IMG/VR virus record: IMGVR_UViG_3300046005_000838
Coordinates: 1 to 22,157 of that record
Length of the DNA stretch: 22,157 nucleotides
Reading direction: 5' to 3' (one strand)
Source: a virus
The notes below the pieces were generated by a model, which saw only the letters and a list, made by a program, of their open reading frames with translations, did no database searches and had not been told where the DNA came from. A program made the translations under genes and the position numbers. Of the stretch, positions 3,705 through 20,952 are shown piece by piece. The first letter of the stretch is position 1; each line of letters starts with the position of its first letter.

Positions 3705-4090
3705 AAACATTTAAAAATTTCATGGCGGAAAGATGCTGGGCCGGGTACAAAGAAACTCCAGGTAAAAAAGCCTATTCAAAAGGTTCTTGTGTTAAAGAAG
3801 AGGAACAAATTGAAGAAGTAGCTGCATGGCAGCGTAAAGAAGGTAAAAATCCTGAAGGTGGATTGAACCGTAAAGGTATTGAATCATACCGCCGTGAAAA
3901 CCCCGGCTCAAAACTTTCAATGGCAGTTACAACTAAACCATCAAAATTAAAACCTGGATCAAAGGCAGCCAATCGCCGCAAATCATTTTGTGCCAGAATG
4001 GGTGGCATGAAGAAGCGTTTAACTTCTGCTAAAACTGCAAATGATCCAGATAGCCGTATTAATAAAGCATTAAGAAAATGGAACTGTTAA
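3701..4090 (+). CDS. Small basic modular protein with DUF6321-like domain, probable internal virion protein
   Basis: The gene overlaps its upstream neighbour by four bases (ATGA). The 129-residue product opens with MKTFKNFMAER, very close to the T4 internal-protein targeting peptide (MKTYxEFIxEA). A CWAGYKETPGKK...GSCVK module follows at 12-32. An acidic QIEEV hinge at 36-40 leads to a basic block, AAWQRKEGKNPEGGLNRKG at 41-59, continuing through RRKSFCARMGGM to NKALRKWNC at the end. I recognise this block as the DUF6321 type found in many phages and some bacteria; the function is unknown. The strongly positive mature part would suit binding of packaged DNA. Cleavage after MAE or IEE by a prohead protease is an inference from the motifs. 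Confidence 0.65.
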   Translation: MKTFKNFMAERCWAGYKETPGKKAYSKGSCVKEEEQIEEVAAWQRKEGKNPEGGLNRKGIESYRRENPGSKLSMAVTTKPSKLKPGSKAANRRKSFCARMGGMKKRLTSAKTANDPDSRINKALRKWNC

Positions 4091-19086: not shown

Positions 19087-19530
19087 TTGACTTGGTATTA
19101 TCATAATACAGCAGAAGAATTCAAAGAAGAACACATAGCCGATAATGTAGGTTATGTTTACTTAATCACACACCATCAAACAGGTAAAAAGTATATTGGT
19201 AAAAAACTATTTACCAAGGCTGGTTATCGTCAAATCAAAGGTAAAAAGAAAAAGATACGGAAGGCCAGTGATTGGCTAAATTACTGGGGAAGTAATGAGG
19301 AGTTACAGAAAGAAGTTATTAAAAACGGAGAGGATCAATATACGAGAGAGATATTATATTTGTGTAAAACTAGATCAGCTTGCAATTACTGGGAAACTTG
19401 GGAAATATTCAATCGTCATGCTTTATTAAGTGAACAATATTGGAACTCTTGGGTAACCTGTAAAATCCACAAAACTCATGTATTAGGAAAAATCAATGGC
19501 TCGCAAACAAGCAACCAACTTAGCTCATGA
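19087..19530 (+). CDS. GIY-YIG-like endonuclease
   Basis: The 147-residue protein matches the short GIY-YIG nuclease family seen in T4-like phages (segE-like). The first motif reads VGYVYLITHHQTGKKYIGKK (GYVYLI and KKYIGK carry the two halves). Then come DWLNYWGSNEELQKE, EILYLCKTR with an ACNYWETWEIF helix, and a closing LLSEQYWNSWV. The start is TTG immediately after the previous TGA; no ATG is available upstream in this frame. It overlaps the phoH start by 35 bases. The protein may be a stand-alone homing-type nuclease or a DNA-repair/resolvase-like enzyme; there is no intron or intein boundary visible beside it. Confidence 0.7.
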   Translation: MTWYYHNTAEEFKEEHIADNVGYVYLITHHQTGKKYIGKKLFTKAGYRQIKGKKKKIRKASDWLNYWGSNEELQKEVIKNGEDQYTREILYLCKTRSACNYWETWEIFNRHALLSEQYWNSWVTCKIHKTHVLGKINGSQTSNQLSS

Positions 19531-20263
19531 AAATGTTGTAGAACTTAAACAACCAGCACCAAAACCATCCAATCAATTAAAGTTAAGATTGGATGATTTA
19601 AAAACATTTGATCCTCTAACACAAAATCAGAAACTATTCTTTGATGCCTACAAAAGAGGTGATTACTTTGTAGCATTACATGGTGTGGCTGGTACTGGTA
19701 AAACCTTCTGTGCATTATATAAAGCCATTGAAGAGGTGATGGACAAATCTAACCCATTTAATAAAATCATCGTTGTCCGTTCTGCTGTACAATCAAGAGA
19801 AATTGGGCATTTGCCTGGTGATGTGAATGAAAAGATGGATATCTATCAGCAACCGTATCGTCAGATATGCGAGACATTATTTGGTCGCAAGGACGCATGG
19901 GATCGTCTTGAGGAACAAGGCCACATTCAGTTTATATCTACATCATTTATCCGTGGAATGTCATTTGATAATGCTATTATTATTGTGGATGAAATGCAGA
20001 ACCTTACCTATGAAGAAATTGATACCGTTATGACCCGTGTTGGGCATATGTCCAAAATTATATGGTGTGGTGATTATAGACAAACTGACCTGAATAAGAA
20101 AAAGAATGATATGTCAGGCATTCTAAAATTCTTTGATATTGCCATGCATATGTCAGCCTTTACTCGTATTGAATTTACCGCCGATGATATCGTGAGGTCA
20201 TCATTAGTTAAAGATTATATTCTGGCGAAAATGAAATATGAAGATTACCAAGAAAATAAGTAA
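19496..20263 (+). CDS. phoH: PhoH-like ATPase
   Basis: The 255-residue protein is a PhoH family P-loop ATPase. Walker A is GVAGTGKT at 63-70 and Walker B IIIVDEMQN at 161-169. The family blocks VVRSAVQSREIGHLPGD and IIWCGDYRQTDL are also present. PhoH is one of the commonest phage auxiliary genes. It was first linked to phosphate starvation and has been proposed to act in RNA metabolism, but its phage role is not settled. Translation starts inside the end of the GIY-YIG gene, so the two are probably co-transcribed. A 114-base non-coding segment with a late promoter follows. Confidence 0.93.
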   Translation: MARKQATNLAHENVVELKQPAPKPSNQLKLRLDDLKTFDPLTQNQKLFFDAYKRGDYFVALHGVAGTGKTFCALYKAIEEVMDKSNPFNKIIVVRSAVQSREIGHLPGDVNEKMDIYQQPYRQICETLFGRKDAWDRLEEQGHIQFISTSFIRGMSFDNAIIIVDEMQNLTYEEIDTVMTRVGHMSKIIWCGDYRQTDLNKKKNDMSGILKFFDIAMHMSAFTRIEFTADDIVRSSLVKDYILAKMKYEDYQENK

Positions 20264-20309
20264 TTTATACCTGAAAAATTGTGCGCTTGCAACATAAATA
20301 AATGTGATT

Positions 20310-20370
20310 CCTTATAAATACTAATATAAGTAGTAACACTAATATCAAAAAACTTAGTATTTGTATAAGG
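20310..20370 (+). promoter_or_regulatory. Inverted repeat that can mask the ribosome binding site of the next gene
   Basis: Left arm CCTTATAAATACTAA (20310-20324) pairs with right arm TTAGTATTTGTATAAGG (20354-20370): 15 base pairs with a two-base bulge around 20362-20363 and a 29-base loop. The right arm's AAGG, with the A at 20371, is the Shine-Dalgarno site (AAGGA, 6 bases before ATG 20378). RNA that reads through from phoH would hold this site in the stem. RNA started at the late promoter would lack the left arm. It could alternatively act as a DNA dyad for a binding protein. Confidence 0.6.
20313..20320 (+). promoter_or_regulatory. T4-type late promoter, exact TATAAATA, inside an inverted repeat
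   Basis: The full TATAAATA consensus lies in the only sizable gap of this region, 58 bases before the ATG at 20378. Transcription from such a motif would begin near 20326. A weaker CATAAATA occurs at 20293-20300, also in the gap. The promoter overlaps the left arm of the inverted repeat at 20310-20370. Confidence 0.65.
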
Positions 20371-20377
20371 AATAATC

Positions 20378-20479
20378 ATGCAAACAATCATAAACTTTTT
20401 TAAAATATTCTTCGGCGCAGTCATTGAAGCAAGAATGAAACGAGCTGAATACATCAGAACAGGAAAATACCATGTTTAA
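20378..20479 (+). CDS. 33-residue small protein under late/hairpin control
   Basis: The frame begins at ATG 20378 with AAGGA six bases before it. The product opens MQTIINFFKIFFGAVIEAR, an amphipathic helix that may touch the membrane, and ends in a basic tail (RTGKYHV). It overlaps the next gene by eight bases. Such short helical proteins are frequent in T4-like aquatic phages, but I do not recognise this one. The elaborate upstream control region supports its being expressed. Confidence 0.55.
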   Translation: MQTIINFFKIFFGAVIEARMKRAEYIRTGKYHV

Positions 20480-20729
20480 TATGTTTAACCCACAATCAAT
20501 GGTCACAGAATTTGATTCTAAGACCAAAGAGTATGCTTCAACTTTTTTAGATACAATTGAAGCTTTTCAAGTATCCAGCGTTAAAGCATTTGATCAATTT
20601 ACGAATAACACATTTAATATATACACCAGTAAGGTTATTGATACTGTTAAAGATATGAATGTTAATGCAAAAGAAATCGTTAAATCCGGAAAGTTTAAGG
20701 TCGTTACTGCTACAGGACATAAAGAGTAG
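20472..20729 (+). CDS. 85-residue helical protein, weakly phasin-like
   Basis: The start lies within the previous gene (eight-base overlap), with GGAAAA before it. The protein is almost wholly amphipathic helix, with evenly spaced Phe, Ser and Thr (FDSKTKEYASTFLDTIEAF, then a VKAFDQFTNNTF repeat-like stretch). This resembles phasins, which coat polyhydroxyalkanoate granules, but the likeness is only of composition and helix pattern. It ends just before a strong intrinsic terminator, so it is the last gene of its transcript. A structural or regulatory coiled-coil role is equally possible. Confidence 0.5.
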   Translation: MFNMFNPQSMVTEFDSKTKEYASTFLDTIEAFQVSSVKAFDQFTNNTFNIYTSKVIDTVKDMNVNAKEIVKSGKFKVVTATGHKE

Positions 20730-20741
20730 TTCCCGGAGCTT

Positions 20742-20784
20742 TAGCCCAATCATACGCAATGGTTGGGCTATTAAGTTTTCTTTG
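20742..20784 (+). terminator. Intrinsic terminator after the phasin-like gene
   Basis: A 12-base-pair stem (TAGCCCAATCAT with ATGGTTGGGCTA, one G-T wobble) closes a five-base ACGCA loop at 20742-20770. It is followed by a T-rich run (TTAAGTTTTCTTTG). It begins 12 bases after the stop at 20729. Confidence 0.8.
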
Positions 20785-20928: not shown

Positions 20929-20931
20929 ATG

Positions 20932-20952
20932 ACCACCTACGGGTGGTTTTTT
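20932..20952 (+). terminator. Intrinsic terminator with UACG tetraloop
   Basis: A perfect six-base-pair stem (ACCACC/GGTGGT) with a TACG loop closed by C-G is followed by six T residues. C(UACG)G is one of the extra-stable RNA tetraloops. It starts four bases after the stop of the 37-residue ORF. Confidence 0.88.

Follow-up and report, generated by a model that had tools for sequence, protein, structure and literature searches.

Results

The leader downstream of phoH

The window analysed here is a 22,157-nt stretch of viral DNA (IMG/VR record IMGVR_UViG_3300046005_000838, positions 1 to 22,157). The segment under study begins with phoH, which is preceded by a SegE-like GIY-YIG ORF (19087-19530), and comprises the following features:

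19496-20263, + strand: phoH (Pfam PhoH, E 1e-45), putative source of the read-through RNA
20282-20291, + strand: TGC-N4-GCA dyad resembling PhaR/PhbF operators (conserved at the locus; published consensus)
20293-20300, + strand: second late-type box, CATAAATA (scans)
20307-20324, + strand: left arm of the hairpin, ATTCCTTATAAATACTAA (sequence and folds; inner 12 bp found by a repeat finder)
20313-20320, + strand: TATAAATA, candidate T4-type late promoter box in the left arm (exact match; enriched at gene starts in the relative G001; as described for T4)
20354-20373, + strand: right arm of the hairpin, TTAGTATTTGTATAAGGAAT (sequence and folds)
20367-20371, + strand: Shine-Dalgarno (SD) sequence AAGGA, inside the right arm (sequence; predicted accessibility)
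20378-20479, + strand: 33-aa ORF with the masked start site, conserved in relatives (ORF list; relatives)
20472-20729, + strand: 85-aa ORF, conserved two-helix protein, loosely phasin-like (ORF list; relatives; model)
20742-20770, + strand: intrinsic-terminator-like hairpin (terminator scan)

The two arms form 18 base pairs, interrupted by a 2-nt GT bulge and closed by a 29-nt loop; the ATG of the masked gene, at 20378, lies just 3' of the right arm. The first-pass annotation had recognized the same element as a 15-bp inverted repeat (20310-20324 with 20354-20370), which is real but slightly short, and had correctly placed both the exact TATAAATA within the left arm and the SD sequence of ATG 20378 within the right arm. 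The leader RNA from 20264 to 20400 has a predicted folding energy of -20.8 kcal/mol (z -2.5), equalled or bettered by 3 of 200 shuffles; for an RNA beginning at 20326 the value is -2.8 kcal/mol. When the 67-nt hairpin segment is folded alone, z is -3.6 and 7 of 2000 dinucleotide shuffles are as good; the segment was picked post hoc, and this fraction is not a clean p-value.

An intrinsic terminator after phoH was considered as an identity for the hairpin and rejected: the terminator scan finds no T run 3' of it and no terminator-like site at 20307-20380. The scan likewise returned no such site between phoH and the hairpin, the nearest ones being at 20742-20770 and 20931-20948. No Rfam match was obtained in the window or in four relatives, and no tRNA was found.

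The last 8 nt of the 33-aa ORF are shared with the 85-aa ORF. The product of the latter is modelled as two helices (pLDDT 80), with no significant fold match in the PDB and no family hit in Pfam, PHROG or NCBIfam. One relative of this protein hits the phasin family TIGR01841 at E 0.017, below the cutoff. A search of phage records found no relatives of the protein, and none was confirmed in bacterial genomes.

Predicted exposure of the ribosome binding site

Accessibility was calculated as the mean predicted unpaired probability of the AAGGA sequence, and the late start was placed at 20326 following T4 practice, with the box at -13 to -6. For RNAs whose 5' ends range from 20001 to 20307, accessibility is 0.06-0.07. 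The value rises with stepwise loss of the left arm and reaches 0.70-0.79 from 20326, depending on the 3' end chosen; at 20 and 10 C, RNA from 20326 still gives 0.54-0.58. Thus, the comparison of the two folds suggested in the first-pass annotation yields a masked read-through RNA (0.07) and an open late RNA in silico. The start codon is mostly paired in the late RNA (0.13 unpaired). The identical computation applied to gene e of T4 gives an SD accessibility of 0.00 in the long RNA and 0.69 in the late RNA. A second positive control, T4 soc, shows no switch at the SD (0.84 to 0.85), the predicted helix covering the start codon region and leaving the SD uncovered; because of this result, the SD metric must be taken as informative but incomplete, missing some known cases.

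The effect does not extend to the second gene. The 85-aa ORF has its own SD sequence (AGGA at 20461), whose accessibility is 0.29 and 0.28 in the two RNAs, that is, unchanged. Of the two genes, the hairpin is thus predicted to mask just the first. The earlier proposal that it controls both the 33- and the 85-residue genes stands for the start of the former; since the SD of the latter is equally accessible in both RNAs, its control would need translational coupling.

Late-type promoter boxes and the gp55 system

The window contains two exact copies of TATAAATA against 2.7 expected. This count is not unusual; the weight of the leader copy comes from its position and conservation. The other copy, at 1511-1518, lies 46 nt 5' of the start of a 715-aa ORF, where SD accessibility changes partially, from 0.20 to 0.55. 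Among exact TATAAATA sites with an SD sequence in the window and in the relatives G001 and G003, only the window leader and one HNH endonuclease gene go from below 0.1 to above 0.7. At the latter (in G001; L094, minus strand, near 4071), TATAAATA lies in a 13-bp hairpin over the SD, and accessibility changes from 0.02 to 0.74; such a layout is in keeping with the homing endonuclease genes of T4.

G001 is a near-complete 162-kb relative carrying the same genes as the window. TATAAATA ranks among its two most gene-start-enriched 8-mers: 10 of 15 sites fall 12-90 nt upstream of called genes as compared to 0.78 expected, the underlying gene calls being crude. Boxes of the TAAATA type in relatives precede several long ORFs that are likely virion genes, including one sheath-like and one tube-like ORF identified by eye. 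A search with T4 gp55 detected homologues in G001 and G003 (E 2e-21 and 2e-23); the gp55 evidence comes from these relatives, the window being a 22-kb fragment without a gp55 of its own. The single G001 record holds two different gp55 homologues (G001:C1 2694-3050 and 160328-160678). Both the gp55 search and the box positions point to a late promoter system of the gp55 type in the closest relatives, as a late-promoter reading of the leader requires.

The second late-type box, CATAAATA, was absent from the first-pass annotation. RNA from this box is predicted to start at about 20306 and to keep the whole hairpin; if used, CATAAATA would give a late RNA that is still masked. Because its RNA still carries the hairpin, some of the possible late RNAs would stay masked.

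Conservation of the layout in relatives

Loci with the same leader were collected through relatives of the 85-aa protein and of PhoH. The combination of a late-type box and a hairpin recurs in five further divergent sequences at the locus, with differing arms. In L004, L019, L008, L021, L010, L009 and L020, the box is part of a hairpin that overlaps the SD sequence, the start codon or both with its right arm; the box reads TCTAAATA in L010, L016 and L021, as against TATAAATA in the rest of the window clade. The window pairs ATTCC with GGAAT, L021 and L010 pair ATTGTC with GACAAT, and L009 pairs CATTGC with GCAATG. Strong changes in SD accessibility between long and late RNA are predicted for L004 (0.15 to 0.79), L021 (0.21 to 0.79) and L008 (0.03 to 0.6), and a moderate one for L019 (0.30 to 0.61). 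In L009 and L020 it is the start codon that becomes free (0.02 to 0.56-0.80), the SD being hardly affected. The effect is weak in L010 and L016 (SD 0.34-0.40 to 0.41). Finally, L119 keeps the TATAAATA box and shows no masking; here, an antisense gene sits between phoH and the leader. Compensating arm differences, which the first-pass annotation had named as something to look for, are thus present together with a late box kept in a hairpin over the SD or start codon, L010/L016 and L119 being the exceptions.

Paired columns were out of register in a MAFFT alignment of the leaders, and an arm-swap test was therefore used instead of column-wise pair counts. Native arm combinations average -13.5 kcal/mol versus -8.4 kcal/mol for between-clade swaps, and 16 of 720 permutations of the six sequences are as good as the native arrangement; with so few relatives, which are moreover related to one another, the test is a modest one. 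In the window, L019, L020 and L119, the 33-aa ORF comes first; in L008, L009, L010 and L021, a different 43-aa ORF takes this place. Since the same device precedes different first genes, it belongs to the leader and not to one particular gene. In the window the predicted target is the 33-aa ORF, as had been proposed; this does not carry over to the relatives with the 43-aa gene, nor to L119.

A scan of viral contigs for TCCTTATAAATA-N20-50-ATAAGGA returned 41 stretches, many before start codons. These were set aside as evidence, AAGGA preceding genes anyway. In L144 (2754-2800), the SD sequence and the TATAAATA box of divergent genes overlap on opposite strands, producing a symmetric inverted repeat. 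A divergent layout of this type is a route to such repeats without a switch.

An operator-like dyad and more distant leaders

A TGC-N3/4-GCA dyad lies upstream of the box in 28 of 29 leaders, which are related sequences, against 4-7% expected per leader. Leaders with the dyad include L049, L058, L061 and L086, and the dyad precedes small phasin-like genes. Many of the leader dyads match the PhbF motif of Herbaspirillum, TG-N-TGC-N3-GCAA (PMC3206438), and the PhaR consensus of Ralstonia (PMC12849132). A TG-N-TGC-N3-GCAA sequence or a TGCRNYGCA palindrome at the promoter is clear in many relatives; the window dyad, with a 4-nt spacer and 5 mismatches to the 17-nt consensus, scores poorly. We take the likeness to an operator of PHB-storing bacteria, which is one of sequence, as a lead and not a result.

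In distant relatives, the box of the leader following phoH is TATATAAT or TATATACT, and it marks the start of a strong hairpin. In a sister group (L023, L027, L031 and L048), the SD sequence GGAG pairs with a CTCC adjoining TATATACT; its predicted accessibility is 0.00-0.01 in the long RNA versus 0.40-0.69 in the truncated one. In most other distant leaders the hairpin leaves the SD uncovered. The genes that follow encode small proteins, one group being the loosely phasin-like one with the sub-cutoff TIGR01841 hit and another belonging to DUF3563.

Discussion

A probable translational timing switch

The features of this leader suggest a translational timing switch of the T4 type, early-off and late-on, a reading to which we assign a probability of roughly 0.77 from sequence and folding. 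Transcripts that enter the leader from phoH and the nucleotide-metabolism genes before it would carry both arms. In such RNA the hairpin, folded in silico, buries the SD sequence, so that the 33-aa ORF would go untranslated; hence the small gene is probably silent in early read-through RNA. After the onset of replication, a gp55-type late RNA polymerase would start at about 20326 from TATAAATA. Lacking the left arm, the late RNA would have its SD open and would allow translation of the 33-aa and overlapping 85-aa ORFs. The late promoter thus probably removes the hairpin and turns the gene on late. The terminator-like hairpin at 20742-20770 would close a late unit extending from 20326 to about 20780. 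By analogy, this uncultured T4-like phage probably has the trick of T4 lysozyme in a new place. The first-pass annotation had already put forward this interpretation; the tests that could be made at the sequence level all came out in its favour, and it holds with the corrections given above.

Chance is the least troublesome of the other explanations. AT-rich sequence with an SD complement beside a TATA box could make a fortuitous hairpin, AAGGA pairs easily with TCCTT, and the number of TATAAATA copies in the window equals expectation. Yet few shuffles reach the same stability, other exact TATAAATA sites seldom show such a switch, and the structure is kept in divergent relatives with compensating arms. 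This explanation is already disfavoured, and we consider it very improbable. The hairpin might instead stabilize an mRNA end or a 5' leader, or serve as a protein or RNase site, with the cover over the SD being incidental. Many distant relatives (L049, L054, L058 and L086) indeed have a strong hairpin here that leaves the SD uncovered; however, cover of the SD or start codon recurs in the window clade with differing arms, and both a U tract and an Rfam match are absent. We consider a role of this kind quite unlikely.

A related view, which we rate as improbable though less so, is that the hairpin provides insulation rather than timing: it would only block translation of the unit from phoH transcripts, leaving RNA from an internal promoter, late or not, as the sole translatable species. 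The sister group speaks for it, having TATATACT and not a late box in the left arm, with CTCC masking the SD; because this group uses TATATACT, the layout at the locus can do without a late promoter. What weighs against it is the identity of the box in the window clade, TATAAATA or, in L010, L016 and L021, TCTAAATA, given that in relatives TATAAATA-type boxes stand upstream of likely virion genes. Besides, the two readings overlap, as insulation combined with a late promoter amounts to timing.

Relation to known systems

The promoter-in-hairpin principle is established for T4 genes e, soc, 49 and I-TevI, and so is repression of gene e by such a structure (PMC3014915); the first-pass annotation had cited e, soc and I-TevI correctly. 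Hairpin control has also been reported for I-TevII, I-TevIII, segB and Aeh1 mobE (PMC2988022). The window leader shares with T4 gene e the late promoter in the 5' arm, the SD in the 3' arm and the open truncated late RNA (PMC3014915), as well as the accessibility switch obtained by the same computation. It differs from gene e in preceding a 33-aa ORF after phoH, in belonging to another phage group, in its longer 29-nt loop and in having one box able to unmask and one that would not. The same promoter-in-hairpin logic is common to the homing endonuclease genes I-TevI, I-TevII, I-TevIII, segB and Aeh1 mobE (PMC2988022), whereas the gene masked in the window does not encode an endonuclease. As had been supposed for this gene pair, no report of such a switch for a gene downstream of phoH was found in the open-access literature searched, T4 reviews included.

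The phoH-downstream leaders L023-L086 resemble that of the window in their locus, in the overlap of promoter box and hairpin, in the small helical protein genes and in the TGC-N3/4-GCA dyad. They differ in having mostly TATATAAT or TATATACT instead of TATAAATA and in a hairpin that is usually off the SD. A tentative scenario, which we regard as possible yet doubtful, would place a unit of host-type genes for small proteins (phasin-like, DUF3563-like and 33-aa) after phoH in many T4-like phages, with control at two levels, by a dyad like the operator of the host PHB regulator PhaR/PhbF and by a promoter in a hairpin; the window clade would have swapped the host-type promoter for a phage late promoter, giving rise to the early-off, late-on switch.

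Under the timing reading, a mechanism proven in T4 would also operate in uncultured aquatic T4-like phages and at a new locus, and gene timing would become readable from sequence in phages that cannot be grown. The occurrence of the same layout with other promoter boxes at the locus makes the order of events testable, that is, whether the hairpin or the late promoter came first.
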